Positions 13,857 to 43,158 of a DNA stretch of 61,706 bases are shown in pieces. Under the pieces are notes generated by a model that searched no databases, was not told the origin of the DNA, and saw nothing but the letters and a program-made list of their open reading frames with translations. This stretch comes from Deltaproteobacteria bacterium HGW-Deltaproteobacteria-19 (GTDB lineage: Bacteria > Desulfobacterota > Syntrophia > Syntrophales > PHBD01), in contig PHBD01000003.1 of NCBI GenBank assembly GCA_002841865.1, positions 124,561 to 186,266 on the forward strand. Direction: 5' to 3'. Position numbers and translations under genes: made by a program. The number at the start of each line of letters is the position of its first letter. Within the stretch, counting starts at the first letter, position 1.

Positions 13857-15011
13857 CTAGAACTTCAACTGCTCCTTGAACTCCTTGATGATCAGAAGCG
13901 CATCCACACCGGATACCGCGCCGTCCGGACTGAACTGCCCGGTCGCGAGGTTGCCCTTCATGATCCCCCGGCTCGTCACCACCATGACGGCGTTGAAATA
14001 AGGGAGATCGGACCGCAGGTCGCCGAAGGTGGATGTGCTGCCGATGAACTTGGTCGCCAGCTTCTCGTCGCCCGTAACCTTGATGAGGATATCCTCGATC
14101 ATCATGGCATAGGCCGCCCTGTTCACGAGGCCCGCGGGATCGAACGTGCCGTCTGGATAGACTTCGAGGCCGCGGACGCCATACTTCAGGAGCCCTGCGA
14201 TGTCAGGCTTCAGGGGATGATTCACAATGTCCCTCGGGGTCACGGAGCCCTTTCTCGCCCGTTTGCCGGGCTCCCGGAAGGAGGTGTCGAAGGATTTGAC
14301 TGTCCGCCGTTCATAGAGCGTGTCGATCTTCAGCTCCTCCATGAACAGGGCCGCAGCGTCGGCCCGGCTGATCTTCTCCAGGAGGGCGATCTTCTTGCCC
14401 GTGGCCGTTCCCGGCATGGCGCGCTGGATCTTGTCCATCAGCTCCCACTGGGCCGCCGCTTCCGCCGTATAGGCACCCTTCAGCTCGGCCACCTTGGCGA
14501 ACATGCCCCGCGCCTTCTCGAACTCCAGGGCCGCCCGGTAGGCCATCCCCATGAAATAATAGGCACCGGAGGACCGGGGATCGTACTGGATGGCGAAATC
14601 GAACTTTTCCCGGGCCAGGTCCAGCCAGTTCGACGGGGACTGGTTGAGGGTATAAACCCGGATGTAGGCGATATCAGCGTACGCTTTCTGGTCGTTCGTG
14701 CTGGCGTGCCCCCAGGCCGTATCCACATGTTTCAGGGCGCCATTCGGATCTTTCAGGTAGGCGGCCACGATGCCCTTGCCGGCGTAGGCCTTGGAAAACT
14801 TCGGGTCCAGCTGGAGAGCCCGGTCGAAGCTGGCTCCGGCATCCTGAATCCGCCCCTCATCCAGGGCTTTTTGACCAAGAAAGAAATGATGCTCCGGCGT
14901 ATCCATCTCACTGACCGGTTTCACCGGTGCAAGTCCGCAGGCGGCGATCCCTGCCGCCAGCAACGCGATCAAGAGCGCCGTCATCCATCTTCCCATCCGT
15001 AGGCGGTTCAT
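13857..15011 (-). CDS. TPR and SLH-like lipoprotein
   Basis: A 384-residue exported lipoprotein of unknown specific role. The N-terminal hydrophobic segment ends in a lipobox (GIAAC). Residues about 40-190 contain TPR-like helical repeats (EHHFFLGQKALDEGRIQDAG; AFDRALQLDPKFSKAYAGKG-type pairs). The C-terminal half resembles S-layer-homology domains: VNRAAYAMMIEDIL, FGDLRSDLPYFNAVMVV, and FSPDGAVSGVDALLII. In Gram-negative bacteria such SLH modules usually contact peptidoglycan, so the protein may bridge the outer membrane and cell wall. The ATG at 15011 has AAAGGAG upstream. Confidence 0.75.
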   Translation of the reverse strand: MNRLRMGRWMTALLIALLAAGIAACGLAPVKPVSEMDTPEHHFFLGQKALDEGRIQDAGASFDRALQLDPKFSKAYAGKGIVAAYLKDPNGALKHVDTAWGHASTNDQKAYADIAYIRVYTLNQSPSNWLDLAREKFDFAIQYDPRSSGAYYFMGMAYRAALEFEKARGMFAKVAELKGAYTAEAAAQWELMDKIQRAMPGTATGKKIALLEKISRADAAALFMEELKIDTLYERRTVKSFDTSFREPGKRARKGSVTPRDIVNHPLKPDIAGLLKYGVRGLEVYPDGTFDPAGLVNRAAYAMMIEDILIKVTGDEKLATKFIGSTSTFGDLRSDLPYFNAVMVVTSRGIMKGNLATGQFSPDGAVSGVDALLIIKEFKEQLKF

Positions 15012-18002: not shown

Positions 18003-18920
18003 TCAATCCAGCACGATCATGACACGGCATTTCTGGAGAAATGCCATGTTTTCCTTGACGGCGCGCAGTTTCAGGGCATCATTGGAGGCGATCTTCAGAT
18101 CCGACTTGCCTGCCCCTTCGGCGCTCACGGCCTTGACGGTGAAGGGGTTGTTCGTCACCCGGGGATTTCCCTGGGCGGCGGAGAGATCGCGGGCATAGCC
18201 GCTGATTCCCTGCTGGATGGCGTATTCCTTGTTCACCACCAGGGTTCCGTACACTTCCTTCCCGTTCTCGTCGAAGACCTTGGGGGACATGGCAGGCCGG
18301 GCGCCGAGACCGCGGGCGTCAATGACCAGTCCTGTGAAGATGTCGTCTGCTTTTCCGGGTTTCGGCCTCATGGGCGGGGGCGGCGGGTCGGTTTTCTTGT
18401 CGTCGGCGATGGCCTTGGGCATGATCGTCCTGACGAACGAACCGGACATGTACATCCGCACGGTCACTTCCACCGTCCCGTCGGACATATACTCCCGGTT
18501 CGTCACCTTGGCGTTCTTCACGAGACCGGAGACGCTCGCCTGAATGATGTCGCTCTCGGTAACAAAATCCTTCACGGTGGTCTGCGAATCGATCTGGACC
18601 CCTTTGGTCACCTCCAGGAGGTTCCTGTATGCGTCTACCTGGGCGGCCCGGAGAGCCATCGGCCGCGCCTGGGGCTTGCCGTAATATTTCTCGGGAGGAG
18701 CCCCGATCCCAACGGCCTCGATGTAGCCTTCCTCGTAGTTGATGAGACCCTTACCGTCCGGCGTGGTCTCCGCCACCTTGGCCTCGATGATCTTATTCCA
18801 CTTGTCCAAGGTTACCTTGCCGTCTCCCGCCGCCTGCCCCTGCTGACAGAAGCCGGCGCCGGCCAGCGCAAACAGCACACACGCGAGGACTCCCGCGAAA
18901 ACCAGAACTTTCGATCTCAT
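18003..18920 (-). CDS. Secreted LPP20/FlgP-like protein
   Basis: A 305-residue exported protein with an N-terminal signal peptide (VLVFAGVLACVLFALAGAGFCQ). Residues about 85-160 (RPMALRAAQVDAYRNLLEVTKGVQID, then TVEVTVRMYMSG) match the LPP20 fold found in FlgP of Vibrio and in Helicobacter LPP20, where it builds outer-membrane-associated rings. A proline-rich linker (DPPPPPMRPKPG) leads to a second domain (LVIDARGLGARPAMSPKVFDENGKEVYGT) like those in other LPP20-family proteins. There is one Cys near the signal-peptide end but no convincing lipobox. ATG at 18920 has GGAGG upstream; a nearer GTG at 18926 is too close to it. Last gene of the envelope cluster. Confidence 0.7.
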   Translation of the reverse strand: MRSKVLVFAGVLACVLFALAGAGFCQQGQAAGDGKVTLDKWNKIIEAKVAETTPDGKGLINYEEGYIEAVGIGAPPEKYYGKPQARPMALRAAQVDAYRNLLEVTKGVQIDSQTTVKDFVTESDIIQASVSGLVKNAKVTNREYMSDGTVEVTVRMYMSGSFVRTIMPKAIADDKKTDPPPPPMRPKPGKADDIFTGLVIDARGLGARPAMSPKVFDENGKEVYGTLVVNKEYAIQQGISGYARDLSAAQGNPRVTNNPFTVKAVSAEGAGKSDLKIASNDALKLRAVKENMAFLQKCRVMIVLD

Positions 18921-19024
18921 GTCCACCTCCTGATGATGGTTAAGCCAATTTCGTTCACGTCGGGGTCGGAGGGTAGCACAAAGCTTTTTCCCAATTCAAG
19001 GAGGAAAAGCGCCCTCCTCCGGTC

Positions 19025-21796
19025 CTATTTCGGCTCCCGGAAGGCGTCCGGCTCCGGCCTCTCCAGCCAGGGCCTTATATTCACGTTCTTTTCCGGATCG
19101 CCGAAGATCATGCGCATGTCCGGCGGGCTTTTCCCCCACCAGTTCTGCCGTGCATCGATGTACAGGGAAGAGAAGCTCTGGATGGCCACCTCGTTCCGTT
19201 CAAAGTTGTTCCGCTGGATCAGGGGACGCGACGTGCCGACGCACTTGACGGCCCCCTCTCCCCGGTTTCCCGTAAAGGTGTTGTAAAAGATGCGGGGGGA
19301 GGCGTCGTTCCGGCAGTAGATCCCGCACTGGCTGTTCTCGGCCACATGGCAGTGGCTGATCTCGGGGCTGCCAAAGTGAATGTCGAAGGCCGTCTCGGCG
19401 TATTTCACGATGCACCAGGAGAAGGCGCTGTTAACCGCCGTGGGTTTCGTCATGCGGAAGGCACTGGCATAGAAGCCCGGCGAGGGAGACGCCCCGGAGG
19501 CGGTGAACAGGATCGGCAGGTCGCGCGTGCCCCGTGCGATCACCCCCCCATTCTCGGCCACGAGGGCGGTATTCTGGTCGAACCGGACGGTGACGCCCCG
19601 TTCGATGGTGAGGACGGCCCCTCCGTCAAGGATTACATCGCTGGTAACGGTGTAGGGGCTGTTCGACTGGATCAGATAGGCGTCCGACGTGATGCGTCCG
19701 CCGATCCGGGAGGACAGGACCGGCAGGTCCAGGGATTTTCCACCCGGCCAGGGGGAGCCCAGAATGCTCTGCACATCCACCTTTCCCTGGACTCCAGCCA
19801 GAACATCCAGCCCCTTGGCACTCCCCCACCAGTTGCCACGCGCCATTACGGGATCGCCGGAAGCGGGGGCCAGGGCATTGAACGGGCGGTTGTCCGAAAC
19901 GTTGTTCTCCGTAATGGACGGATTTCCTCCCGCCACCACGATCCCGGATCCGAGGTTCCGGGAGATGCTGTTCCTCTGAACCACCGGGGACGCCCGCTCC
20001 ACGAGGATGCCCGCATTCAGGTTGTCCTCGATGGCATTGTCCGCCACCAGAGGTCCCGCCCCGTCGACGGCAACGACAGCGGACTGCCGGTTCCGGGCAA
20101 CCCGGGATTTCAGGAGGCGTGGTATGGAAAAGGCCCCGGAGGCCCGGAAGGCCGTATCATTCTCCGTCAGCTCCGACGACTCCACGACGGGCGACGACGC
20201 CTCGCAGTCGACTGCCCGCCGGGCATTCCGGATCCGGACGTAGCTCAGGGCGTTCACCTTGTCCTTCACGTTCCGGAAGCGGATGCCGGGCCACATCTTC
20301 CCCTCCTGGGCGGTGTCGAAGACAATGATGTGCTCCGAGTCCCCCCGGGCCATCAACCGCCCCTCCACCGTCAGAGTCGCGTCCTTGGAGCGGATTTCCG
20401 TACCCGGCTGAATGGTCAGGACCGCCTGGTCCCGGACCGTCACCGGCCCTTCCAGGACATAGGGACTGGCGCCGGCGTGCCAGGTGGTGTCGGCCTCGAT
20501 GATTCCCGAAACCGGGGTGGGTCCCGGAGCGACGGGCATGCCGGCGACGGCGCCCTTCCTCGTGCTCTCGTTTCCCGCCAGATCGACGGCGGTTATCTGG
20601 TAGTAGTACGCGGTTCCGTTCCTGAGGGACGGGTCCCTGTCCGTAAACTCCGTAAATTCCGTCTTCGCCACCTCGACATAGCCGCTGAGCGGGGTTGCGC
20701 TCCGATAGACCCGGTATCCCGCCAGATCCGGGTCGGAGGACTTGTTCCAGCGGAGTTGAACGATGCGGTCCCTCCCCACCGTGGCAACATTCGCCGGGGC
20801 ATCGGGCGGGGTCGTCTTGAGGGAAACGGTCCCGACGGCGTCCACCCATTCGGAGAAGTTGCCGGGATCGTTCGCGAGGGCCAGCCTTCCGGTGATGATG
20901 GCCTGGCGGACATTGTCCCCCGGAACCACCCGGTAGGTCCCCAGGTACCATCCGGGCTCCGTCTCCTGCATGTCGATGTGCTTCCGGTAGTCTCCGATCG
21001 AGAAGGAAGCCATCATCTTCGGCGTGCCCTGGAGGACCACCTTGATCTCGTCGCCCGCCTTTTTCGGCAGGTTTTTCGTGTCCTGGGTCAGGAGCGTGAT
21101 GGAGGGCGGCCGCAGCGCCTCCGCCAGGCTCGGCACCGGGATCGTCTGGACCATGTCCCGGAAGAGGTCGTCACAGGCCCGGAGTAGTTGGATGTCCCGC
21201 ATGTTGAGGGACGTGGCGATGACGACGGCGACGATCCCGACGGGGTTCGTGGAGATGCCGCCCTCGTGGATCCGGGCCGTATGCTTGCCGCTCCAGAGGA
21301 AATGGCCCGTTTTCGTGTCGTACATCTTCACGTCTGCTCCCACGGAGACCTGTGAGTACAGGGCCAGGAAGAGTTTGTCGAAGTTGGAGACGGTCCCGTA
21401 GACGACCGCGTCGACCCCCAGAATCTTCCCCAGTTCCTGGGGCGTCTTCTTCGCCAGCTCCTTCGGGTCCCCCATCAGATCCGCCTTGCGGAGCAGGCTG
21501 TCCACCCGCTGGATCTGCATGTCCGCGAACGGCAGGGAGCTGAAGTGGTTGTAGAATCCACGGCGGACCTCCTCCGACCCCCTCTGGCTCTCGGCCTCGT
21601 TGACGAAGGGAAGGACGGCGACTGTTTTGGGCATGTTCTTCGCCATGAACGGATCGGCTGCGTAGGTGCCGGCAAACAGGCTCCGGATCGGCGGGGTGAT
21701 CACCGTGCTCTCCGTGACAACGGCGCAGCCCTGGCAGAGCAGCAACAACAAAACGACGGTCAGGAGTCTCCACGGCACAGGATAGTTGTCGTTCAT
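19025..21796 (-). CDS. Large putative lipoprotein: GNA1162/DUF799-like + FN3 + right-handed beta-helix
   Basis: A 923-residue exported protein of unknown function. Order: signal sequence ending LLLLLCQGC (a non-canonical lipobox); residues about 30-220 like the DUF799/GNA1162 lipoprotein family (KTVAVLPFVNEAESQRGSEEVRRGFYNHF, VDAVVYGTVSNFD); a C2-like middle part; an FN3 domain about 365-455 (DLAGYRVYRSATPLSGY); then a long beta-helix region with NosD-like repeats (NAIEDNLNAGILVERASP, NSISRNLGSGIVV, NTFTGNRGEGAV). Both copies of the NWWG box (GNWWGSAKG, QNWWGKSPP) mark the helix turns. GNA1162 folds resemble the periplasmic core of CsgG and TolB-N. ATG at 21796 has AAGGAGG upstream. Nothing in the sequence reveals a catalytic site. 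Confidence 0.75.
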   Translation of the reverse strand: MNDNYPVPWRLLTVVLLLLLCQGCAVVTESTVITPPIRSLFAGTYAADPFMAKNMPKTVAVLPFVNEAESQRGSEEVRRGFYNHFSSLPFADMQIQRVDSLLRKADLMGDPKELAKKTPQELGKILGVDAVVYGTVSNFDKLFLALYSQVSVGADVKMYDTKTGHFLWSGKHTARIHEGGISTNPVGIVAVVIATSLNMRDIQLLRACDDLFRDMVQTIPVPSLAEALRPPSITLLTQDTKNLPKKAGDEIKVVLQGTPKMMASFSIGDYRKHIDMQETEPGWYLGTYRVVPGDNVRQAIITGRLALANDPGNFSEWVDAVGTVSLKTTPPDAPANVATVGRDRIVQLRWNKSSDPDLAGYRVYRSATPLSGYVEVAKTEFTEFTDRDPSLRNGTAYYYQITAVDLAGNESTRKGAVAGMPVAPGPTPVSGIIEADTTWHAGASPYVLEGPVTVRDQAVLTIQPGTEIRSKDATLTVEGRLMARGDSEHIIVFDTAQEGKMWPGIRFRNVKDKVNALSYVRIRNARRAVDCEASSPVVESSELTENDTAFRASGAFSIPRLLKSRVARNRQSAVVAVDGAGPLVADNAIEDNLNAGILVERASPVVQRNSISRNLGSGIVVAGGNPSITENNVSDNRPFNALAPASGDPVMARGNWWGSAKGLDVLAGVQGKVDVQSILGSPWPGGKSLDLPVLSSRIGGRITSDAYLIQSNSPYTVTSDVILDGGAVLTIERGVTVRFDQNTALVAENGGVIARGTRDLPILFTASGASPSPGFYASAFRMTKPTAVNSAFSWCIVKYAETAFDIHFGSPEISHCHVAENSQCGIYCRNDASPRIFYNTFTGNRGEGAVKCVGTSRPLIQRNNFERNEVAIQSFSSLYIDARQNWWGKSPPDMRMIFGDPEKNVNIRPWLERPEPDAFREPK

Positions 21797-21906
21797 GTTT
21801 CCTCCTTGCAGAACCCGTTTCTTTTGATCCCAGCCTGATGAAAACGGGGAATCGGCGCCGGTCCGGATCCGTCCGTTCCCTCCGGGCGAAGCAACCGTTT
21901 TCCCCT

Positions 21907-22674
21907 TCAGCCCCCCCGGACGCAGGACAGGACATTTTCCCCGTTGTTCGAGTATGCCTCCCCATGCCCGGGATAGAGCACCCGGGGGGACAATTCCGCT
22001 TTCAGTCGATCGAAGGAACGATGGATCTCCTGCTTGTTCCAGCAGAAACGATTCAGTTCGGGCCCCCGTGCCGCGTCGAGATTCAGGATCGTGTCCCCGG
22101 TGAGGAGCCGTCCTTCCGCTTCCTGGTACAGGCAGATCGAGTCTTCCGTGTGCCCCGGGGTTTCCACGACGTCCCACCCCCCGAAGCCAAGGGGATAGCG
22201 CTTCCGGCCTGCCCCGTCCAGCGGAAAAATCCTGTCCGCATCCACCCCGATGTCGCAATGGTCTCTCAGGATGGGCAGCGGAATCCCTGCCAGTGAACCG
22301 AAATTCAGGTGGGAAAGGCGGCGGACATAGCCCATCGATGCCACGGCGGCGGAGAGAAAGCCCGTGCCCCACCCCTTGAGGGAGCAGAGTTTCCGCTGCC
22401 CCTGCAGATATTGGATCGCCAGGGTAGTCAGGAATACCTTCGTCCCGGGAGCACAGAATTCGAGGAAGCGGGCCACTCCCCCGATGTGGTCGACGTGAAA
22501 GTGGGTGGCCAGGACAAAGCGGACCTGGGCCATGGACAGGCCCGGCTGGCCGGTGATGAAGCGGACCGCGTCCTCCGCCGCGCCGACGCTGCCGACATCG
22601 ACCACGGCCAGACCCTCGCGGTCCGACAGGACATAACAGCGGGAGAACCCGCAGGGAGGAAGGCAATGGACCAT
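21907..22674 (-). CDS. Metallo-beta-lactamase-fold hydrolase
   Basis: A 255-residue cytoplasmic protein of the MBL superfamily. The zinc-binding motif HxHxDH is complete (THFHVDHIGG); later metal ligands are in VVETPGHTEDSICLY, LTGDTILNLD and YPGHGEAY. This set fits glyoxalase II-like or related thiol-ester hydrolases, but the substrate cannot be told. It sits between the two exported FN3 proteins on the same strand, yet has no export signal, so it may simply be a passenger in the unit. Confidence 0.82.
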   Translation of the reverse strand: MVHCLPPCGFSRCYVLSDREGLAVVDVGSVGAAEDAVRFITGQPGLSMAQVRFVLATHFHVDHIGGVARFLEFCAPGTKVFLTTLAIQYLQGQRKLCSLKGWGTGFLSAAVASMGYVRRLSHLNFGSLAGIPLPILRDHCDIGVDADRIFPLDGAGRKRYPLGFGGWDVVETPGHTEDSICLYQEAEGRLLTGDTILNLDAARGPELNRFCWNKQEIHRSFDRLKAELSPRVLYPGHGEAYSNNGENVLSCVRGG

Positions 22675-22763
22675 GTCAGCCGATCCGAACTGTCTGCATC
22701 GCCGCCAATCCGGTGGAACGTCCCTGGACGACTTGTTGCGCCGTAAACATAACTTCTCGGAGG

Positions 22764-23120
22764 CTATCGAGTTTCCCGATCCTTGCCTCCGCCGGGGGGC
22801 ATGGACACGTCGCGGACTACTTCAACATCCAGGAAAGGATTCGAACTTCTGGGAGAGACCTTGATGAATTTGTAGGGAATGGCGATCGGCTCGCGACCGG
22901 TCGCCAGGGCCCGATGCGTCAGAATCCAGACGGCACCTGTTACGGTGTCCACCAGGTAGGCCTTTTCATCGGTGCCGGCCACCACCTGATACCTTCCCTC
23001 GGCTGCTCCGGCTGTCAGGGACATCGCCAGAAACGCCGCCGCGACAAGGACGACCACGGCCAGAATCTTCAGCGCCCGGGCGGCCGGCCGCGTCCCGTTC
23101 TCATGCCTTCCTGCAATCAT
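22764..23120 (-). CDS. Small exported hypothetical protein
   Basis: 118 residues. An N-terminal membrane segment (ILAVVVLVAAAFLAMSLTAGA) is a signal peptide or anchor, followed by about 80 residues with YLVDTVTGAVWILT, a pattern seen in small proteins with a single beta-propeller-like blade, and a charged C-terminus. GGAGGAAGAAG precedes the ATG. It follows the FN3-rich gene on the same strand. No function is recognised. Confidence 0.6.
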   Translation of the reverse strand: MIAGRHENGTRPAARALKILAVVVLVAAAFLAMSLTAGAAEGRYQVVAGTDEKAYLVDTVTGAVWILTHRALATGREPIAIPYKFIKVSPRSSNPFLDVEVVRDVSMPPGGGKDRETR

Positions 23121-23159
23121 CTTCTTCCTCCTGAATCCGGAAAACAGGTTCCGTCTGGG

Positions 23160-25274
23160 CTATGGCGCGTTTACGGTGATCTCCGGGCTGGATTCGCTTT
23201 CCAGAGCATCCCGATCGACCGCTCGCACACTGAACACTCTGCTTTTCCCCTTCGCCATCTCGCCCGCCGCATGGGACGTGCCGCTTACGGCGGCGATCTT
23301 TTCGAGGCCGAAGAGGCCCCGCTCGTACAGATCGTACCGAACGATGTCGGGCTCCGAATTGGCATCCCAGCGGAGGATGGCCTTGCCGTTCGCCACCTCG
23401 CCTCGGAGCCCCGCAGGCGCCTTCGGCCGCGGCTTCGTCTGCGCCAGGACGGTGGGGGAGGGTTCGCTCTCAACATCCCGTTGATTGTAGGACGTCATTC
23501 GGTAGAAGTAAACGGATCCGTCCCCAAGGGTGCCGGGAAGACCGCCCAAGCCGAGCGCCCTTTCCGCCAGCGCGGTCACTTCTCCATAAACACCGCCTGC
23601 ATCCTCGAACTGGAAGGAGGAACGACCGGACAACTTGCCGATGGGTTCGAACGGTCCCTCCTTCTTCTGAGAACGGTAAAGCCGGTATCCCTGGACGTCT
23701 TCCCGGGTACACGCCTGCCACGTAAGAAGGATCTTTTTCACCCGGCTGCCCTCCGCTTTGAGACCCTGCGGAACGGGGGGCTTATCCCGGGTTATTGCCG
23801 ACGCGGTATCAGAGGGTGACGTTTCAGCGCCCCCTTCCTCGAAGACGGTCACCCGGTAATAATAGGTCTTCCGGTCTCCCAATCCTTCCCTGTCGACACA
23901 GGAGACCCGGCCGTCCGCCCCGGCCGGCCCCGGAATAACGTTCTGAAGCCTGGCGAAATTCCCGCTCGGGCTCTCGCTTCGGTAGATATGGTACCCACGA
24001 ACGAACGGCGAAACGATCGGTTTCCAGGACAGGGGGACCTCCCGGATCTGTTCACCCGTCGCCCGGACATCGCTGACGCGGGGCAGGGACGATCCGGCAA
24101 GGGCCCTGGAAAAATCGCTTTCCAGGTCTTTTTCGTTGCATGCCGTCACGCGGTAGAAGTAACGCTCGTCGTCTCCGATGCCGCTGTCGACGAAGATCAC
24201 CTTTCCGGATCCCGACACATCCGTGCCCTGCCCGGGACCGAGGCCCGTGACATCCTTTACCTCACGATAAGGGCCGTCCTCCCCCTTGGCCCGATACAGC
24301 TTGTAGCCTTTGAACTTGAGGGGGTCGTCTCCGGTGGTGGGGCTGGGCAGCCAGGTCAGCTGAATGCCCCGGACCCGGGAATCGGTCCTCAGGATCACCG
24401 GCGGGTTGGGCGTGGGCGCCGATTCGGCGGCGACAACCGCGGAAAAGTCGCTATAGCCGCCGCTGCTGCTGAAGGACCGGATCTTGTACTGATACGTCCT
24501 GTTTCGCTCCACCGTCTGGTCCCAGTACTCGGGGCGGTTCACCTGGGCGATCCGGGCAAAGGGTCCGGTTGCGGAGGACCCCCGGAACACTTCCCAGCCG
24601 GAGATGCCCGTTGCCCCGGGCGGACTCTCCCAGGACAGGTAGATTTTCATGTTACCCGATTTCTTTTGCACGTTGACCGGCGCCTTTGCGGTGGGCGTCT
24701 CTTCCCTCGTCTGCTTCGAGCTGGTTACGGCGCCGGCGATCCGGTCTGCGAGGACGTCCAGTTCCCGGGCCAGTCCTGCGTCTCCGAATGCAGCAAGACG
24801 GACGTCCAGGACGGGCTTTCTCTGCTCGATGTGAACAACCTTGCAGTAAAGCGTCAGCATTGTGCCTTTTCGCTCCACACTCCCGGTCACGACGATGTTC
24901 AGACCCAGGCGGCTCCCGACAAGGATGACATTGTCCATGTGGTCGTTCTGCTGCAGGTCGTTCAGCGTGAGGAAACTTTCCAGTTCCTTGCGATCCAAGA
25001 CGGAAAATCCGGGCCGGTTCTTGAGGTTGTTCAGGAGTGCGTTGGTGACGGTTGTGCCGTAGGCGGAGGCCTCCAGGTTTCGGGCGCTGAAATTGAAGAC
25101 GGCGGCCCTGACGGGAGCGGATGACTGGGCCCGGGACATCGCCACGCCGGTGATACAGAAAAACAGCACGGCCAGGACCGGGACCAGGCGGAGGGTCCGG
25201 CGACACGACAGGCGGCCCGGGGATCCTCCCGGGATGTTGATCCGTTTCGATCCGGCCATGGGTATGGAAATCAC
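23160..25274 (-). CDS. Exported CsgG/FlgO-like protein with multiple FN3 domains
   Basis: A 704-residue exported protein. After a signal anchor (LVPVLAVLFFCITGVAMSRAQ) residues about 50-190 form a CsgG/TolB-N-like domain (VRAAVFNFSARNLEASAYGTTV, FSVLDRKELESFL, LNIVVTGSVERKG). Five FN3-like repeats follow, each with a W/G-Y-x-[LIV]-YR signature (GWEVFRG, GYKLYRAKG, GYHIYRSES, GYRLYRSQK, RYDLYERG). FN3 arrays on secreted bacterial proteins usually act as spacers or adhesion modules. The first possible start, GTG at 25274, overlaps the preceding stop (GTGA); an ATG at 25259 is an alternative, as the ribosome site is very close to the GTG. Confidence 0.75.
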   Translation of the reverse strand: MISIPMAGSKRINIPGGSPGRLSCRRTLRLVPVLAVLFFCITGVAMSRAQSSAPVRAAVFNFSARNLEASAYGTTVTNALLNNLKNRPGFSVLDRKELESFLTLNDLQQNDHMDNVILVGSRLGLNIVVTGSVERKGTMLTLYCKVVHIEQRKPVLDVRLAAFGDAGLARELDVLADRIAGAVTSSKQTREETPTAKAPVNVQKKSGNMKIYLSWESPPGATGISGWEVFRGSSATGPFARIAQVNRPEYWDQTVERNRTYQYKIRSFSSSGGYSDFSAVVAAESAPTPNPPVILRTDSRVRGIQLTWLPSPTTGDDPLKFKGYKLYRAKGEDGPYREVKDVTGLGPGQGTDVSGSGKVIFVDSGIGDDERYFYRVTACNEKDLESDFSRALAGSSLPRVSDVRATGEQIREVPLSWKPIVSPFVRGYHIYRSESPSGNFARLQNVIPGPAGADGRVSCVDREGLGDRKTYYYRVTVFEEGGAETSPSDTASAITRDKPPVPQGLKAEGSRVKKILLTWQACTREDVQGYRLYRSQKKEGPFEPIGKLSGRSSFQFEDAGGVYGEVTALAERALGLGGLPGTLGDGSVYFYRMTSYNQRDVESEPSPTVLAQTKPRPKAPAGLRGEVANGKAILRWDANSEPDIVRYDLYERGLFGLEKIAAVSGTSHAAGEMAKGKSRVFSVRAVDRDALESESSPEITVNAP

Positions 25275-27253
25275 CGCTCCTTGAGGATACTGTCGATCAT
25301 TTCCTGTGCTTTCTGGGTCACCGCTGTGGAGATTCCCTTCAACTTGACATCGTAGAGGGCATCGACGTATTTTTCCACCGCGTCGTCAGACTTCCTCCGT
25401 TTCCGGTACTGCTCTCCGGCGTTGAAGTACTCGACTTCCAGGCTCTGGAAGTGCTTGAGAACGCTCTGTCCCATCTCCGAGATCTTCATGTTCGTCAGCT
25501 CGGCCAGGACCTCCGCCTCCGTGGGAAGCTGAAGCGGGTCCTGGGGGATGTTCGCCATGGGCACGCCGTCCTGGTACTTGTCTTCCTTGATCAGGCGCCC
25601 CTCGAGGGTGTTCGTGAAGATGTTCTCCCCGGTGGTGGTGTCCACGAGTTTGTAAGACACGTCGAAGAGGGAGACGATCTTGGCGCTGCCCTGTTTGTAG
25701 GTTACGAACTGGTAGTTGCGCTTCTTCGTCGTCTTCGGCGGAGCCGTCTTCAGTTCCTCTTCCGATGGCCTGGGGTGGATGAGCAGCCAGGTCTGCCACT
25801 CCGGGTTGGAAATGTCCTCCTCGTCCACCAGGACCTTCACCTGGTTGTTGCTGGACGTGTCCGCCTTGGTGGCCATGACCTTCAGGACGTTCCCCATGAT
25901 AAAGGTGTCGATGCCGCGCATCTTGATGGCCTGGGCGGACTTCACGTCAACGAGACCGGTCTGGCCGAGCTGCATCTCCCGGAGGATGTTCTGGAGGTTT
26001 TCCCTTTCGATGATCCGAAGGTCGCTGCTGGCCTTCTGGTAGAGGTAGGACACGAGCTTGTCCGCAGCCATCTTGCCGGCGTCCTTATCGTTGCTGGGGC
26101 TCGAGAAATCGAAAACGGCGATGGATTTGCGGATTCGCTTGCCGATCCGCTCCCGGGTGTCCTGGACCTTCTGGAAGAGCTCCGGGTGATTCGGACTCAG
26201 GGATTCGGCCTTCTGGTACCACATCAGGGCGTTTCCCCACATTTCCTTGTCGTTGTACCTGTCGCCCCGGGCGATGAGCCGGGTGGTCGTCCGGGCCACG
26301 AGATCCCGGAACACCTGCTCGTCCTTCATGGACGGGAGATAGGCCTTTACGGATTCGATCTTCCCGACGGCCGCCCACAGTTTTTCGTGGCTTGCCAGCT
26401 TCTCCGCTTCATCGAAGAAGATCTGGCCGACCTTGACCTTGAGGTTCTCCAGTTTTTTGGCGAGGTCCTGGTTCTCCGGCTGGTATTCCAGGGCCCGCTG
26501 GTAGCAGAAAACCGCCCGGTCCCACGATTTCGATTTCTCCGCTTTCTCACCGGCGGCGAGGAAGTAATCGGCATTGTCGTTGGCCACGGAGGTCTTATAG
26601 AGAGAGGCCGCATCGAGGAACTTCGGGTTCATCTCCATGACGGTCTTGAAGGCCTGGGCGGCCATCTTCCAGTCCTCGCTCCTGCTCAGGGCTACCCCCT
26701 GCTGGTAGAGCTGCTTCACTCCCTCCTGGTTCACGCGCGCCAGCCTGGCCCCCGTCTCCTCGTAGTTCGGGAAAAGCCGGTTGATCTGCAGGAGCTTCGC
26801 CCGGGCCGCGGCCCAGTCTTCCTTCTGGAGATCCACGTCAGCCTGAGTGTACAGGCTCTTCACTTGCGCGAGGAGGGTTTCCAGCCGGTCTTTCACGGCA
26901 CTCTGGAATGCCTTGATCTCCCGGCTGGACGGGTCCATCACGGCTGCTCCGTCAGCGTCCTTGAGAATCCGCTCCAGGGTCATCGCGTCGGGCTCCGCCA
27001 GGGTACCGTAGGCCTTCCGGATCCTTTCCAGGCGGCTTGCGGCTCCCCTCTGGCGCGCCTGCAGCAGGGCGGCCTGGTATTCAGCGCTGCCGGGGCTCTC
27101 TTTCAGGGCCGCTTCGAAGTATCCAACGGCCTCCTCCGGCCGGTTCTGGCCCATCAGATCCTGGCCCATCTTGAAGCTTTCGCTCGTGCCGCATCCCGCC
27201 AGCAGGAGCAGGAAGATCAGGAGCAGGAATGTTCTCAAGTGAGTCCGGTGCAT
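25271..27253 (-). CDS. TPR lipoprotein with CsgG-like domain
   Basis: A 660-residue lipoprotein: the signal peptide ends in a canonical lipobox (LLLAGCGTS). Residues about 25-370 are TPR-type helical repeats (EEAVGYFEAALKESPGSAEY; SWDRAVFCYQRALEYQPENQ; MWGNALMWYQKAESLSPNHP). From about 378 a CsgG-like domain follows (KSIAVFDFSSPSNDKDAGKMAAD, RIIERENLQNILREMQL, VDVKSAQAIKMRGIDTFIMG). CsgG is the curli export channel lipoprotein, but the transmembrane hairpins that make its pore were not identified here, so only the periplasmic-core resemblance is claimed. It is translationally coupled to the next gene (GTGA). Confidence 0.8.
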   Translation of the reverse strand: MHRTHLRTFLLLIFLLLLAGCGTSESFKMGQDLMGQNRPEEAVGYFEAALKESPGSAEYQAALLQARQRGAASRLERIRKAYGTLAEPDAMTLERILKDADGAAVMDPSSREIKAFQSAVKDRLETLLAQVKSLYTQADVDLQKEDWAAARAKLLQINRLFPNYEETGARLARVNQEGVKQLYQQGVALSRSEDWKMAAQAFKTVMEMNPKFLDAASLYKTSVANDNADYFLAAGEKAEKSKSWDRAVFCYQRALEYQPENQDLAKKLENLKVKVGQIFFDEAEKLASHEKLWAAVGKIESVKAYLPSMKDEQVFRDLVARTTTRLIARGDRYNDKEMWGNALMWYQKAESLSPNHPELFQKVQDTRERIGKRIRKSIAVFDFSSPSNDKDAGKMAADKLVSYLYQKASSDLRIIERENLQNILREMQLGQTGLVDVKSAQAIKMRGIDTFIMGNVLKVMATKADTSSNNQVKVLVDEEDISNPEWQTWLLIHPRPSEEELKTAPPKTTKKRNYQFVTYKQGSAKIVSLFDVSYKLVDTTTGENIFTNTLEGRLIKEDKYQDGVPMANIPQDPLQLPTEAEVLAELTNMKISEMGQSVLKHFQSLEVEYFNAGEQYRKRRKSDDAVEKYVDALYDVKLKGISTAVTQKAQEMIDSILKER

Positions 27254-27326
27254 TGCAACCTCCTTCGCGTTGATTCATCGGCCGGAAAGCGCCAAAACGC
27301 TTCCCGGTAAGGACCTGCGGGCGGTA

Positions 27327-28448
27327 TCAGGGGACCAGCTTCGCCCGAATCCGGTTTTGCGTAATTTCGAGGATCTTGACCGTGCGGGATTTGAAGGACA
27401 GTGCGGCGAGGTCGTCGGCAAATCCCTGGATGGTGCCCTTCACCTCGACGTCCAGGTCGACCTGCCCTCTGCTGAAGGAACGCTGATGCGCTTCCCGATA
27501 CCCTTTGACTTCATGAGACATCAGTTCCTTGAACAACGCCAGATCATCGTAGGAACGGAGTCCCGACAGGACGAGTTTGAACGTAGCCGCCTTCGCGAGG
27601 TCCGCGGACCACCGGTTCAGAATCCCGTCGAAGAGGGCCCGGGACAGCTTTCCCGTGGCCTCCCCGGTGATGTCCTTCCAGTCTCCTTTGACGCCCGGCT
27701 TTGAGGCGGCGGCGGAATCGGTGGCGATGACCTCTCCCGTGTCGCCATTGATGACCTTGGCCGAGACGGTCACCTTGTTGGAATGCATCTCGATGTTGCT
27801 GATGGTGAATGCACTGGTGGCCGTCTCCACCCGGCCCGCCACCAGGACTTCCGCCCCGAGTCCGCGAGCCATCCGGGAAAGTTTGCGAAGGTCTCCCCCG
27901 GCTCTATCCATCTCATCGATTTCACGGTTTTTTCTCGCGGTCTCGGCATCCACGAGGCGGAAACCCTGCTCCATAAAATACCGGGACATGACGGACTCCG
28001 CCAGGGCATCCTTCGCCTCCCGGCCGCTGAAGACGATCATCAGGCGGGGTTTTGCCTTGCGGGCCACGATGAGGCGGATCGCCTTCATCCGCTCCTGGAG
28101 GCGGCCGGTGCCGACGTCGGCGTCGATGACCACCGTGTAGGTTCTCCCGTCATGCTTCTCCGAAACGATGGAGTAGGAATTGATGAAACCCTCCGCCTCT
28201 GCCAGGATCTGATCCAGCTTGACGGTAAAATTCTCGACCTCCGTCCGGGAACTGATCATCACGCCGACGGCCTGTTCCACGGCGTTCCGCTGGGCGTTCT
28301 CAATGGCCCGGTCACGGGCGATATCTTTGAAATTCTTGTGGATTGCCGCCGAACCCTCGGCGCGGACCTTGTTCTGTGAAAAGCCGGTAGAAGCGGGGAG
28401 AATCACAAGGAGGACAGCGGTCAGGGCCACCCAGATCTTCCAGTTCAT
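27327..28448 (-). CDS. FlgT-like exported protein
   Basis: A 373-residue exported protein with a signal peptide (WVALTAVLLVILPASTGFSQ). Residues about 30-115 match the FlgT N-terminal domain: RAEGSAAI, then ARDRAIENAQRNAVEQAVGV and VVIDADVGTGRL. Residues about 125-230 resemble the TolB-N-like middle domain (RLMIVFSGREAKDALAESVM, GFRLVDAETA, AEVLVAGRVET). In Vibrio, FlgT is a periplasmic ring protein around the flagellar basal body. No flagellar genes are present. ATG at 28448 is preferred over a start 33 bases earlier because it leads straight into the signal peptide. It is the first gene after the promoter at 28518-28547. Confidence 0.75.
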   Translation of the reverse strand: MNWKIWVALTAVLLVILPASTGFSQNKVRAEGSAAIHKNFKDIARDRAIENAQRNAVEQAVGVMISSRTEVENFTVKLDQILAEAEGFINSYSIVSEKHDGRTYTVVIDADVGTGRLQERMKAIRLIVARKAKPRLMIVFSGREAKDALAESVMSRYFMEQGFRLVDAETARKNREIDEMDRAGGDLRKLSRMARGLGAEVLVAGRVETATSAFTISNIEMHSNKVTVSAKVINGDTGEVIATDSAAASKPGVKGDWKDITGEATGKLSRALFDGILNRWSADLAKAATFKLVLSGLRSYDDLALFKELMSHEVKGYREAHQRSFSRGQVDLDVEVKGTIQGFADDLAALSFKSRTVKILEITQNRIRAKLVP

Positions 28449-28517: not shown

Positions 28518-28547
28518 CAAATATCGCAGGTTCCCCCATAGTGTCAA
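28518..28547 (-). promoter_or_regulatory. Candidate sigma-70 promoter of the envelope cluster
   Basis: On the minus strand TTGACA (28547-28542) is followed after 18 bases by TATTTG (28523-28518), giving a leader of about 60 bases to the FlgT-like gene. The -35 is perfect; the -10 and the 18-base spacing are less ideal. No operator-like palindrome is obvious. Confidence 0.5.
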
Positions 28548-38830: not shown

Positions 38831-40239
38831 GCATTCCCCCCCGCAACCGGCAGGACAACCCGCATCAGGATCCCGCCCAGAGACGATGCCTGCACCGTGA
38901 TGCTTCCCGCGTGGGCCTCGACGATGTTCTTGCAGATCGCCAGACCCAGCCCGGCGCCTCCCGACTCCCGGGCCCGGGATCCTTCCACACGGTACAGTCG
39001 GTCGAAAAGCCGGTCGATGGCGGCATCGGGCACCCCCGGGGCGGAGTCCTCAAAATCGACCGTCACCCCACCGATCCCGCCGGTCAGGCGGACGGCCAGC
39101 GTCCCCCCCGCATCGGTGTATTTCAGGGAATTGTCGAGCAGGTTGGTGAAGAGTTGGCTCAGTCGCTCCGGGTCGGCAAACACGGCTGCATCCGTCCGGT
39201 CCGGGATGTCCGTTTCGAGCCGGATGGACTTGCGGGCGAATTCCGGGCGGAAGGACTCGACGGAGTCCTTGAGGACGGCGGCCGGATCGAGGTCTTCCTT
39301 GTGGTAGCTCAGTGTGCCCAGGTCGGAGAGGGAAAGCTGGTACAGGTCGTTCACGAGGCGGTTCAGCCGCAGCGTCTCGGCGTGGAGGGAGCGGATCGTC
39401 TCCGGGGTGACGGTGCGGATTCCGTCCAGGAGCGCCTCGATCTCCCCCTGCAGGACCGTCAGGGGGGTCCTGAGCTCGTGGGAGATGTCGGCCAGCCACT
39501 GGCGGCGGGCCTTTTCGTTCATCTCGAGCGTCAGGGCCATGGCATTGAAGTCGCCGGCGAGATGGCCCAGCTCGTCCGATGAGGACACGGGCACCCGGGT
39601 CGAATAGTTGCCCGAGGCCAGGTCATGAGTGGCCGCGGCCATGGCCCTGACCGGCCGGACCAGGCGGTTTGCGAGCGGAAGGGCGACCAGGACGACGGCG
39701 AAGAGGATACCCGCGGCGGCGAGGGCCAGGGCCAGCCGCTGCTGACTGAGAAACCGGGCCTGGACCGGATGCAGGAACCGCTGGGGCGCATGCAGGCCGA
39801 CATAGCCCACAGCCCGGCCCTCGTGAACGACGGGCCGGAAGCTGATCTCTCCCTCCCCGGTGGGCGACCCGAAGACCGGTTTCCGTTCGGCATCCAGGAT
39901 CACGAGGGGACCGGACGAACCATCCTTCTCTTCACCTTCCTTCCCCCATTGCCTCATCTGCTCCCGGGTGAGCGCAAGCCCGTTCCCCGAGGCGGTGCGC
40001 AGGGTGAGCCCCATCCAGACGCCCCGGCTGTCCTTCAGGAAGCCCCAGCTCCCATGCCCGGCGTAGGCCTGTCCCAGGCTTTCGGCCATCTGCTCCACCC
40101 TGCCCTGGTCCTGCGTGGCGAGGTACTGGTAGAAGCCCCGGTCGATGTTCCACCGCATAATCCCGTACAGGATCAGGATGGCGAGGCCCGTGGCGGCCAG
40201 AATCGTGAAAAACAAGCGCTGGGTGATGCCGATCTTCAT
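38827..40239 (-). CDS. Sensor histidine kinase (BaeS-like)
   Basis: A 470-residue inner-membrane kinase with an N-terminal membrane helix (LFFTILAATGLAILILYGIM), a periplasmic sensor of about 140 residues, a second helix (LALALAAAGILFAVVLVALPL), a HAMP domain, HisKA H-box (WLADISHELRTPLTVLQGE), N-box (NLLDNSLKYTD), G1 (DSAPGV) and G2 (GLGLAICK). It is first in a two-gene operon with the response regulator. BaeS family members sense envelope stress or toxic compounds; the ligand here is unknown. Confidence 0.93.
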   Translation of the reverse strand: MKIGITQRLFFTILAATGLAILILYGIMRWNIDRGFYQYLATQDQGRVEQMAESLGQAYAGHGSWGFLKDSRGVWMGLTLRTASGNGLALTREQMRQWGKEGEEKDGSSGPLVILDAERKPVFGSPTGEGEISFRPVVHEGRAVGYVGLHAPQRFLHPVQARFLSQQRLALALAAAGILFAVVLVALPLANRLVRPVRAMAAATHDLASGNYSTRVPVSSSDELGHLAGDFNAMALTLEMNEKARRQWLADISHELRTPLTVLQGEIEALLDGIRTVTPETIRSLHAETLRLNRLVNDLYQLSLSDLGTLSYHKEDLDPAAVLKDSVESFRPEFARKSIRLETDIPDRTDAAVFADPERLSQLFTNLLDNSLKYTDAGGTLAVRLTGGIGGVTVDFEDSAPGVPDAAIDRLFDRLYRVEGSRARESGGAGLGLAICKNIVEAHAGSITVQASSLGGILMRVVLPVAGGNA

Positions 40240-40405
40240 GCGTTTTTCGCCTCCTTTTGTGTCTATGTATTGGTATTGCGGCGGGTCGTCAAGAATCAGG
40301 GCGATTTTTGGCGGATTTCCTCATTTCCTGCACATTCGTGTGCTAGCTTACCCTCAAACAACGGATGCCCCGGCGGCCAGGCGGCCCGACCGGGGCGGAG
40401 GAACC
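40240..40405. promoter_or_regulatory. Divergent control region between kinase and efflux operon
   Basis: 166 bases. Contains a direct repeat ATTTCCTC-ATTTCCTG around 40314-40330 and an inverted repeat GCACA-TTCG-TGTGC (40330-40343). OmpR-family regulators usually bind direct repeats, so this is a plausible target of the adjacent regulator. I see no convincing -35/-10 pair. Confidence 0.4.
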
Positions 40406-41875
40406 ATGCTTCGAAGCAATGAAAAAACACGACCTGGCAACCGGCGACGGCATCTGGCGATCATGGGTATCGTCCTGACGATGCTGGCGGGATGCGTGAC
40501 CGTGGGGCCCGATTACAGGCAGCCCGACCTGTCCGTGCCCGCAGCCTGGAACAATGAAACCGGGGAAGAAAACGTCGCCGGGACGGCGGACAAATGGTGG
40601 AGCACCCTGAACGACCCGGCGCTCTCCAGCCTGATCGAACGGGCCGTCGCGGGCAATCTCGACCTGAAGAAGGCCCGGGCGCGGGTCCGCGAGGCCCGGG
40701 CGCAGCGGGGCGTCGCTCAGGCCGGATACTTCCCGACCCTCGGCGCCACGGGCACGGCTACCCGGAGCCGGAGCAGCGAGGAAACAGGCTCCGGCGAAAC
40801 GGGCGTCCTGTACTCCGCCGGCTTCGACGCCGGTTGGGAGCTGGACGTCTTCGGCGGCGTCCGTCGCTCCGTGGAGGCGGCGGACGCGACCCTGCAGGCG
40901 ACGCAGGAAAGCCTTCATGACGTGCTCGTCACGCTGCTGGCCGAGGTGGCCTTGAACTACACGGAAGTCCGGACCTGGCAGGCCCGGATTGCCGCGGCGG
41001 AGGCCAACCTGAAGAGCCAGGAAGAGACCTTCCAGCTCACCTCCTGGCGGCAGCAGGCGGGGCTCAGCGACGACCTGGCGGTCCGGCAGGCCCGCTACAA
41101 CCTCGAAAGCACCCGCTCCCAGCTTCCGACCCTCCGCACCGGACTGGAAGAGGCCCGGAACCGCATCGCCGTGCTCCTGGGAGAGCAGCCGGGCAAGGTC
41201 CACGCGGAACTGGAGGAGCGGAAGCCCATCCCAGTCGCCTCCGCCGGGATCGCCCTCGGCGTGCCCGCCGAGGCCCTGCGGAACCGCCCCGACGTGCGGA
41301 AAGCCGAGCGCGAGCTGGCGGCCCAGACGGCAAAGATCGGGGTGGCTACGGCCGACCTATATCCCAAGTTCAAGCTGAACGGCTCCATCGGCGTGGATTC
41401 CACCCTCATCGGCCGGCTGTTCACCTCGGGCACCTACAGCTGGAGCTTCGGCCCCCAGATCACCTGGACGATCTTCGACGGAGGGGCGATCCGCCGGAAC
41501 ATCGAGGCGCAGACGGCCCTGCAGGAGCAGTACTGGATCGCCTATGAAGCCGCCGCGCTGGGCGCCCTGGAGGAGGCGGAGAACGCCATCCGGGCCTATG
41601 TGGAGGAGCAGATCCGCCGGAGATCCCTCAGCGAGGCGACCCAGGCAGCCGAAGAGGCCGCCCGGCTGGCAAGGCTCAAGTACCAGGCGGGACTGGCGGA
41701 TTTCAGCAGCGTCCTGGAGGCGCAGCGATCCCTCCTGGCCTTCCAGGACAGCCTGGCCCAGAGTGAGGGGGCCATCACGTCCAACCTCATCAAACTTTAC
41801 AAAGCCCTCGGCGGCGGCTGGACATCCCTGGTCCCCGACGGGACGAAAACGCCTGAGAGCGGAGAGAGCAAATGA
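40406..41875 (+). CDS. Outer-membrane efflux lipoprotein (NodT/OprM family)
   Basis: TolC-type outer-membrane channel of a tripartite exporter. The 489-residue protein has a lipobox (MLAGCVTVGPDYRQP), WWSTLNDPALSSLIERAVAGN, paired long helical repeats (ARVREARAQRGVAQAGYFPTL; LALNYTEVR-type segment), the NRPDVRKAERELA motif of the second repeat and SWSFGPQITWTIFDGG. ATG at 40406 has GGCGGAGG upstream. It overlaps the following MacA-like gene by four bases, so the whole exporter is one operon. Confidence 0.94.
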   Translation: MLRSNEKTRPGNRRRHLAIMGIVLTMLAGCVTVGPDYRQPDLSVPAAWNNETGEENVAGTADKWWSTLNDPALSSLIERAVAGNLDLKKARARVREARAQRGVAQAGYFPTLGATGTATRSRSSEETGSGETGVLYSAGFDAGWELDVFGGVRRSVEAADATLQATQESLHDVLVTLLAEVALNYTEVRTWQARIAAAEANLKSQEETFQLTSWRQQAGLSDDLAVRQARYNLESTRSQLPTLRTGLEEARNRIAVLLGEQPGKVHAELEERKPIPVASAGIALGVPAEALRNRPDVRKAERELAAQTAKIGVATADLYPKFKLNGSIGVDSTLIGRLFTSGTYSWSFGPQITWTIFDGGAIRRNIEAQTALQEQYWIAYEAAALGALEEAENAIRAYVEEQIRRRSLSEATQAAEEAARLARLKYQAGLADFSSVLEAQRSLLAFQDSLAQSEGAITSNLIKLYKALGGGWTSLVPDGTKTPESGESK

Positions 41876-43158
41876 ACGAGAACACCAATTCCATGTCGGA
41901 TGTCGAAAAGACCATCAAAGGAAGCCCGTCCAAAGGGCCGGGCAAGCACCTGAAACGGATCCTGATCGTTGCGGCCATCGCGGTCGCCGTGATTCTGGTC
42001 GTTGCATTTCTCTGGGGACGAAGCAGCCAGTCGAAGGTGACGCGATACCAGACCGAACCGGTCCGGCAGGGCGACCTCACGGTCATGGTGACCGCGACGG
42101 GCACCCTCAAGCCGACGAACACCGTCGAAGTGGGCAGTGAGCTGTCCGGCACCATCCGGAGCGTCGAGGTGGACTACAACAGCCGCGTCCGGGTCGGACA
42201 GGTGCTGGCCCGGATGGACACAACGAAGATCGAGGCCACCATCGCCCAGTTGAAGGCCGCCCTGGAGTCGGCGAAGGCCAAGGCCCTCCAGGCGAAGGCG
42301 ACCGTCCTGGAGACGCAGGCCAAGCTCGCCCAGTATCGGGAGGTGTCGAAGCTGAGCAGCGGGAAGGTGCCGTCGAAGCTGGAGATGGACGCGGCGGAGG
42401 CGGCCTTCGAGCGCGCCAGGGCCGACGCGGCGAGCGCCGACGCAGCCGTGTCCCAGGCCCGGGCCACGCTCCAGGCCAGCGAAACCGACCTCTCCAAGGC
42501 GACCATCAAGTCGCCCATCAACGGCATCGTCCTCACCCGGAGCATCGAGCCGGGACAGACCGTGGCCGCCTCGATGACGACCCCGGTGCTCTTCACGCTG
42601 GCGGAAGACCTGACCAAGATGGACCTGCACGTGAACGTGGACGAGGCGGACATCGGAAAAGTGCTGGAGGGGCAGAAGGCGACGTTCACCGTCGCCGCCT
42701 ATTCCGGCCGGACGTTCGAGGCGCGGATTACCCAGGCACGCTACGGCTCTTCCACCACCTCGGGTGTCGTCACCTACGAAACCGTCCTCAAGGTCGACAA
42801 CACGGACCTCTCTCTCCGTCCGGGCATGACGGCCACCGCGGACATCATCGTCAAGAAGATCAACAACGCCATCCTGATCCCCAGCGCCGCGCTCCGCTTC
42901 ACCCCGCCCCAGCAGCCGGAGGCAAAATCCTCCACCGGGCTGGTGGGCGCGCTGCTTCCCCGCCCGCCCAAGACCGGCGGCCAGAAGAGCGTGGAGGACA
43001 CCGGCAAGCAGCAGCGGGTCTGGATATTGAAGGACAACCAGCCGGAAGCCTTATCGGTGACGGTCGGGGCCGCGAACGGGAGCTTGACGGAGGTCACGGC
43101 CGGCGATCTCCAGCCCGGTGCGTCCGTCATTGTCGACACCCTGGGGGGAACGAAATGA
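41872..43158 (+). CDS. macA: MacA-like periplasmic membrane-fusion protein
   Basis: Periplasmic adaptor between the inner-membrane MacB-type transporter and the outer-membrane channel. The 428-residue protein has one N-terminal membrane helix (RILIVAAIAVAVILVVAFLW), a lipoyl-like half (SGTIRSVEVDYNSRVRVGQVLARMD), a long coiled-coil hairpin rich in Ala/Lys (about residues 115-200), the returning lipoyl half (TIKSPINGIVLTRSIEPGQTV) and beta-barrel domains. Overlaps both neighbours by four bases. Confidence 0.92.
   Translation: MNENTNSMSDVEKTIKGSPSKGPGKHLKRILIVAAIAVAVILVVAFLWGRSSQSKVTRYQTEPVRQGDLTVMVTATGTLKPTNTVEVGSELSGTIRSVEVDYNSRVRVGQVLARMDTTKIEATIAQLKAALESAKAKALQAKATVLETQAKLAQYREVSKLSSGKVPSKLEMDAAEAAFERARADAASADAAVSQARATLQASETDLSKATIKSPINGIVLTRSIEPGQTVAASMTTPVLFTLAEDLTKMDLHVNVDEADIGKVLEGQKATFTVAAYSGRTFEARITQARYGSSTTSGVVTYETVLKVDNTDLSLRPGMTATADIIVKKINNAILIPSAALRFTPPQQPEAKSSTGLVGALLPRPPKTGGQKSVEDTGKQQRVWILKDNQPEALSVTVGAANGSLTEVTAGDLQPGASVIVDTLGGTK

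Follow-up and report, generated by a model that had tools for sequence, protein, structure and literature searches.

A gene cluster for FlgT-, FlgP-, CsgG/PelC- and GNA1162-like envelope proteins in Syntrophales and other lineages, with MCE transporter genes beside it in some of them

A minus-strand gene cluster at 28448–18003 of a 61,706-nucleotide stretch (hereafter the window) of contig PHBD01000003.1, from the Syntrophales member Deltaproteobacteria bacterium HGW-Deltaproteobacteria-19, encodes FlgT-like, CsgG/PelC-like, GNA1162-like and LPP20/FlgP-like envelope proteins. Its core genes are linked in the same order well beyond this genome, and in three lineages the genes of an MCE (MlaE/MlaD) transporter adjoin them. 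We tentatively interpret the products as a flagellum-independent envelope complex, which may form one or more outer-membrane-tethered periplasmic rings and may dock an MCE transporter in some lineages, probably the Syntrophales among them. Homology with the FlgT, FlgP, PelC and PqiC rings makes an assembly of ring type plausible. The folds themselves are already known, whereas the adjacency of MCE genes to the cluster is new here.

In order of transcription, the cluster encodes a FlgT-like periplasmic protein with a signal peptide (27327..28448; 373 amino acids), a TPR-CsgG/PelC-like lipoprotein with an invariant Cys21 (25271..27253; 660 amino acids), a secreted protein with a weak N-terminal CsgG-like domain and an FN3 array recognised by Pfam fn3 (23160..25274), a small secreted protein of 118 amino acids without a Pfam family (22764..23120), an accessory MBL-fold hydrolase matching Pfam Lactamase_B (21907..22674), a lipoprotein that joins a GNA1162-like domain of TolB-N fold to FN3 and a right-handed beta-helix (19025..21796; 923 amino acids), and an LPP20/FlgP-like secreted protein with a conserved C-terminal domain (18003..18920). 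The FN3 gene start (25274) overlaps the TPR-CsgG stop by four bases, and the likely true starts of the GNA1162 and LPP20-like genes are 21796 and 18920, each just behind an AGGAGG-type site identified by eye. Downstream follow mutL, miaA and then, on the same strand, a gene for a TPR-SLH lipoprotein (13857..15011; Pfam SLH and TPR), which we count as part of the cluster despite the two genes in between. The TPR-SLH gene adjoins LPP20-like or FlgT-like genes in loci L105, L125–L127, L137, L217 and L218. The five envelope genes listed in the original prediction are thus all present on one strand, as seen from reading frames and Pfam; the list had overlooked the 118-residue protein, the hydrolase and the SLH lipoprotein, and neither the MCE link nor the MltC-like enzyme described below had been foreseen.

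All co-occurrence figures refer to a set of 119 related genomes, including that of the window. At an E value of 1e-5, matches to the FlgT-like protein occur in 87 of them (many remote), to TPR-CsgG in 47 and to the LPP20-like protein in 64, while GNA1162 is found at 1e-30 in 54. Rows weaker than the co-occurrence cut-offs were dropped ahead of counting; these were about 1e-57 for FlgT (33 of the 87 genomes with any match kept), 1e-60 for TPR-CsgG (39 of 47), 1e-40 for the LPP20-like protein (60 of 64), 1e-30 for GNA1162 (54 of 54) and 1e-20 for the MlaD subfamily (66 of 66). Presence sets and family labels were compiled by hand, and five of the 119 genomes, which have no family label, were excluded from the stratified test. 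Since the genomes are kin, plain Fisher p values are too strong; within families, TPR-CsgG co-occurs with FlgT (p 1.5e-7) and GNA1162 with the LPP20-like gene (p 2.2e-10).

Among 40 loci fetched from these genomes by matches, the FlgT, TPR-CsgG and FN3 genes follow each other in this order in 26, of which 21 also hold the GNA1162 and LPP20-like genes and one of the other five stops within the GNA1162 gene. This three-gene order recurs across Syntrophales, other Desulfobacterota and Catenovulum/Colwellia. Across the Syntrophales the flanks are stable as well, with pgk-truA-rmlD before the cluster and mutL-miaA after it, so that co-conservation there alone is weak evidence, and these could be unconnected envelope lipoproteins that stay together merely through the stable region. 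This explanation is very improbable given the wider picture. A TPR-CsgG profile identified 56 loci; of those with enough sequence, 46 of 50 have FlgT upstream and 49 of 54 have an FN3 gene downstream. No flank gene (pgk, truA, rmlD, mutL or miaA) was seen in 32 loci, some merely from short contigs; for the 27 of these with at least 3 kb upstream the figures are 23 of 27 for FlgT and 22 of 26 for FN3, and not all of them are independent (e.g., three Catenovulum loci and two contigs of one genome). The same order without the flanks therefore recurs in other families and in Gammaproteobacteria, and sub-modules stand apart as units in genomes G040 and G030, where FlgT-TPR-CsgG-FN3 is on a different contig from GNA1162. 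For the three core genes these independent contexts refute mere synteny, and the co-conservation that had been predicted for related genomes is borne out, with the core order kept also where the housekeeping flanks are missing.

Of the two sub-modules, GNA1162/LPP20 is the wider, its genes occurring in 54 and 60 genomes versus 39 for TPR-CsgG. Outside the Syntrophales, locus L217, from another family of the phylum, has a nearly complete colinear set: FlgT', CsgG', SLH, LPP20-like and transglutaminase-like genes are followed by FlgT, TPR-CsgG, FN3, a small protein, GNA1162-NosD-TPR and FecR; its LPP20-like protein scores 119 bits with our LPP20-like profile and has no Pfam LPP20 match. Locus L105 carries a sister module, LPP20-SLH-FlgT'-GNA'-CsgG'-PEGA-FecR, ahead of FlgT-TPR-CsgG-FN3, and L109 has this module from FlgT' onward. 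A protein similar to the 118-residue one is encoded at the same place in many loci (in L210, L217 and L218 the likeness is by eye only), and the MBL hydrolase is present in nine of 22 relatives' loci that hold both the GNA1162 and LPP20-like genes. Excluded from the latter count is L085 (genome G031), where the cluster is decaying in place: a FlgT-like remnant with a stop precedes retained MBL, GNA1162 and LPP20-like genes, and neither a TPR-CsgG nor an FN3 gene was found between them. A divergent Syntrophus-type version was observed in L074, L075 and L139, with three tandem LPP20-like genes beside the FlgT-like gene and TPR-CsgG about 7–12 kb off.

The cluster is patchy, as only few genomes carry TPR-CsgG at E 1e-30 in the phylum (25 of 395), and only four of 394 in the order of C. 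agarivorans, three of these being remote. In the three remote loci (L204–L206) no FlgT or FN3 neighbour was seen, two of the contigs ending at the gene; the remote relatives in L204 and L206 adjoin a phosphatase-like and a kinase-like gene, as read from the sequence. Among other Desulfobacterota, TPR-CsgG relatives in L213–L215 have no FlgT match in the locus, and other long proteins follow in L213 and L214.

The window FlgT-like protein scores 39.7 bits with Pfam FlgT_N (cut-off 28.8) and comprises an SHS2-like domain with a beta-hairpin insert (residues 27–114), a TolB-N-like middle domain (about 130–285) and a C-terminal domain. In its AlphaFold model (predicted local distance difference test, pLDDT, 82.9), helix 41–61 is followed by a hairpin at 63–85 ahead of the next long strand. 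In the SHS2 family, ring oligomerisation accompanies extra residues inserted after that helix and before the second strand, according to passages of a study of the Campylobacter motor (PMC12222027), and the position of the hairpin is counted in favour of a ring. The best PDB matches of the model are the FlgT structures 8z5n (E 1.5e-10) and 3w1e (E 7.5e-10), at a low overall TM-score of about 0.3. By VIA, the model aligns with 3w1e over 209 residues (Z 12.5; 9.9 Å across two domains) and the middle domain with 8z5n (8z5n_0) over 146 residues (Z 12.3; 2.7 Å), the Z scores of FlgT being tied with those of PelC, CsgG and TolB; the XCC0632 structure 2iqi also matches the middle domain (Z 11.1). The protein thus resembles Vibrio FlgT, the H-ring component, in its FlgT_N domain, TolB-N-like middle domain and hairpin insert. 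Unlike FlgT, it has no Pfam match to FlgT_C at E 0.01, the structure matches do not span its C-terminal part, and, in contrast to both FlgT and FlgP of Vibrio, the genes are found together with those for CsgG-, GNA1162-, FN3-, beta-helix and SLH proteins.

The FlgT_N and FlgP homologies might point to a flagellar motor accessory ring encoded apart from the flagellar genes, all the more as the genome of the window does carry the flagellar gene for FlgI. As this lies on another contig, the predicted lack of flagellar genes holds only locally. The presence of the cluster is unrelated to that of FlgI: 18 of the 39 TPR-CsgG genomes have FlgI and 21 lack it, versus 55 of 119 with FlgI overall (p 0.86 within families). 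This independence brings the flagellar explanation close to refutation, and we regard it as scarcely credible.

The TPR-CsgG protein matches both TPR and CsgG in Pfam (CsgG 31.8 bits, cut-off 20.8), and its AlphaFold model (pLDDT 88.9) is divided into a TPR/helical part (25–374) and a PelC/CsgG-like domain (374–605). Since the 50 best Foldseek rows for the full model were all TPR or other helical repeats, the VIA comparison was used for the CsgG-like domain. PelC is its best structural match (5t11, Z 14.6, 2.2 Å over 117 residues; 5t0z, Z 13.8), followed by FlgT (14.1), TolB (12.5), CsgG (12.3), GNA1162 (11.6) and LpoB (10.4). The two models made thus show the anticipated FlgT and CsgG/TolB-N/PelC folds. 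Like the curli channel CsgG, the protein has a Pfam CsgG domain and a TolB-N-type core. A CsgG subunit contributes two transmembrane hairpins; such a pair is not present in the monomer model or alignment of TPR-CsgG, which instead have one long hairpin (450–482/508–538) with a polar middle and a helical tip bearing invariant N483 and W489. With a single polar hairpin in place of two, the protein is not called a CsgG pore, although the hairpin might be rearranged beyond what the monomer model shows. CsgF was found in none of the 119 relatives, whereas the E. coli positive control matched, in a search that did not include the curlin family. The single polar hairpin and the lack of CsgF led us to reject a curli-like channel.

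The secreted FN3 protein had been described as CsgG/FlgO-like. CsgG was detected at E 0.01 or better in six of its 16 members (best 0.00037) and FlgO in one of 16; the window protein itself scores 20.3 bits with CsgG, just under the cut-off of 20.8. The genome as a whole has 14 CsgG matches. Away from the window it carries a paralogous CsgG-FlgT-like-CsgG trio on contig C34 (L161, 5368–8911) and three tandem CsgG-domain genes on contig C31 (L160, 9421–12323).

The closest match of the CsgG-like domain raises the possibility of export or display, i.e., a ring that passes FN3/beta-helix proteins or polysaccharide to the surface in the manner of CsgG or PelBC. PelC is a dodecameric ring that works with the TPR arm of PelB, as given in sections of PMC12141448, and here a TPR part is fused to a CsgG domain of PelC fold in a cluster that also encodes surface-type FN3 and beta-helix domains. 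The window protein differs from PelC in its covalent long TPR arm and its extra long hairpin with a helical tip, and no PelB-like barrel was recognised among the Pfam-scanned genes, which do not cover whole genomes. Neither is any matched family in the set an outer-membrane barrel, as judged from family matches with no barrel predictor run, and the only polysaccharide-type gene identified in the conserved surroundings, rmlD, adjoins the cluster just in Syntrophales-type loci. Together with the single hairpin and the missing CsgF, these findings make export unlikely. Of the ring-type assembly or export system proposed originally, the ring is plausible by homology and the export and display part is unsupported.

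The GNA1162 protein matches the GNA1162-like (51.5 bits, cut-off 25.9), Beta_helix (81.6) and NosD (47.7) families of Pfam as well as PDB entry 4hrv (E 1.6e-7), with the GNA1162-like domain following a lipobox identified by eye in the translation. In contrast to Neisseria GNA1162, with which it shares this domain and structure match, it is fused to FN3 and to a beta-helix part of about 480 residues. The window LPP20-like protein scores 23.2 bits with Pfam LPP20, under the cut-off of 25.9, and 11 of 19 members match this family at E 0.01. A profile of these 19 relatives matched a Campylobacter motor scaffold chain annotated as a 'putative lipoprotein' (9hmf_C, E 1.4e-13), which we infer to be FlgP, chains labelled FlgP (8z5n_2, E 7.3e-8; 9yds, E 1.9e-6), and also 9yfg and 9yec. 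Besides this FlgP-type match, its C-terminal part (177–300) resembles part of Treponema Tp0624 (5jir, E 1e-6; see also PMC5104382 and PMC7716261).

The latter resemblance fits a cell-wall complex without transport, in which proteins of the TolB-N/LpoB, SLH and FlgP/Tp0624 types link the outer membrane to peptidoglycan or adjust how peptidoglycan is made and cut. LpoB matches the CsgG-like domain, as noted above, and also the CsgG protein of the sister module; an SLH lipoprotein is present, and an MltC-like lytic transglycosylase is encoded within the cluster in Catenovulum and Colwellia (by Pfam) and in NORP105, a gammaproteobacterial metagenome-assembled genome (by tblastn). A lytic enzyme would equally serve a trans-envelope machine, and the MCE genes in three lineages are left unexplained, so we consider this explanation rather improbable, if less so than export.

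The three lineages with MCE genes beside the cluster are Catenovulum (L134–L136), NORP105 (L143) and a member of the Desulfobacterota (L218). The three Catenovulum loci read LPP20, MltC-like lytic transglycosylase, LPP20, TPR, lipoprotein, MlaE, ABC ATPase, MlaD, FlgT, TPR-CsgG, FN3. NORP105 has the same kinds of genes in a block divergent from FlgT-TPR-CsgG-FN3, with a GNA1162 gene of uncertain start that abuts or overlaps MlaD. In L218, MlaE, ABC-like, MlaD and TPR lipoprotein genes lie upstream of and divergent from the FlgT gene, with one gene between. In L129 some 8 kb separate MCE-like genes from a TPR-CsgG gene that is broken, and we did not count this locus as linked.

In the Syntrophales an operon of MlaE, a short ABC frame, MlaD and a lipoprotein is present but unlinked to the cluster; the copy of the window's own genome is split over contig ends (L225, 1–258, 224–700 and 697–1485; L224, 5912–7305). 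In NORP105 and the two C. agarivorans genomes, the best match of a Syntrophales MlaD profile is the MlaD encoded in the cluster itself. The MCE operon is present in 49 of 54 GNA1162 genomes versus 17 of 65 others, with within-family p values of 6.7e-5 for GNA1162 and 8.9e-4 for the LPP20-like gene. The ATPases are unusual: the Walker A lysine is missing in Catenovulum (L134–L136) and NORP105, and no Walker A is found in those of L218 and of L177, L182, L184 and L185 (from the genomes of L115, L137, L127 and L125, respectively). In 13 Syntrophales-type loci measured the MlaE-MlaD gap is 439–552 bases, and Pfam ABC_tran is matched from no earlier than position 39 in the one scanned. Our scripts applied a Walker A pattern and a hydropathy scale. 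The MCE operons of the window's own genome and of relatives from many Syntrophales families (L148–L164, L170–L175) have an ABC reading frame of about 110–170 amino acids without the Walker A half. The MlaD members, of 283–318 amino acids, all match the MlaD family (11 of 11), and many match coiled-coil-type DUF948 (7 of 11) or Laminin_II (6 of 11); they have a long, probably helical tail.

Precedents for a ring that serves an MCE protein exist. According to parts of PMC10897342, eight copies of PqiC, an outer-membrane lipoprotein with structural kinship to PelC, make up a ring in which the MCE protein PqiB is received, and some operons combine mlaFE with an MCE gene and the gene for XCC0632, a relative of PqiC. 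The cluster proteins belong to the same fold group and have MCE neighbours in some lineages; unlike the PqiC/XCC0632 systems, the scanned cluster proteins have no match to the ABC auxiliary lipoprotein family, there are many more components, and the linked ATPase lacks a normal Walker A. By analogy with PqiC-PqiB and PelC-TPR, a collar with an MlaD tail is proposed for the flagellum-independent complex. The TPR-CsgG, GNA1162-beta-helix and probably TPR-SLH lipoproteins would anchor in the outer membrane, and the SHS2-type (FlgT-like and FlgP-like) and TolB-N/PelC-type modules may assemble as a single ring or collar, or as several, on its periplasmic face. In lineages with an MCE operon, the collar of TPR-CsgG and SHS2 proteins would receive the MlaD tail, the ring serving as the outer-membrane dock of an MlaE/MlaD transporter whose ATPase has no normal Walker A. 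The FN3, beta-helix and SLH parts may contact polysaccharide or peptidoglycan and, with the MltC-like enzyme, could deal with wall or surface polymers. The data establish the protein families, the folds, the linkage of the genes and the MCE adjacency in three lineages; ring formation, location, assembly and any lipid transport or cargo are what we infer from these likenesses.

Several observations weigh against this preferred reading. The structural models are monomers, with no oligomer among them, and the hairpin insert of the FlgT-like protein has a pLDDT of only about 45–55, making its shape uncertain. Only a minority of loci have MCE genes next to the cluster, and the operon is not beside it in the window or in the Syntrophales cluster loci read. 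Within families there is no association of TPR-CsgG with the MCE operon (p 0.15), which is missing from five of 54 GNA1162 genomes and present in 17 without GNA1162. The Syntrophales MlaD profile gave no match in the Colwellia genome of L140 and did not recover the cluster MlaD of C. sediminis. Its best match in four further genomes, those of L105, L109, L132 and L133, neighbours an ATPase whose Walker A is normal.

The promoter scan yielded a candidate sigma-70 promoter (28520..28547, minus strand) upstream of the FlgT-like gene. The original prediction named a single leading candidate promoter; this site is one of four promoter-like sites in 14 kb, with 2.4 expected, but it lies within a block kept in the sister species, where by eye much of the remaining gap is not kept. 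Elsewhere, the window contains an OEP-HlyD-MacB efflux set (40145–45097) and a type II secretion operon (50617–61469; GspD, E, F, J, K and M-like).

A description of the cluster was not found in the open PMC literature, among the matches listed; FlgT and MlaD both occur in PMC11756786, the portion consulted of which treats the Helicobacter motor ring. A bolder and doubtful reading is that the cluster encodes a trans-envelope machine for lipid transport that forms a class of its own, in which a collar of flagellar-type SHS2 (FlgT/FlgP) and CsgG/PelC-type proteins at the outer membrane is served by an MCE transporter. On this bolder reading, the loss or degeneration of Walker A in the MCE ATPase would mean that ordinary ATP hydrolysis does not drive the machine, and an ancestral, general-purpose set of ring proteins would have found in the H-ring and basal disk of flagella just one of its special applications. 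If the interpretation of the cluster is right, FlgT and FlgP would have wide non-flagellar relatives, which bears on the origin of the H-ring and basal disk, and MCE lipid transport in diderm bacteria would have one more partner at the outer membrane than those known so far. Both ideas can be tested in the Catenovulum strains with the cluster.

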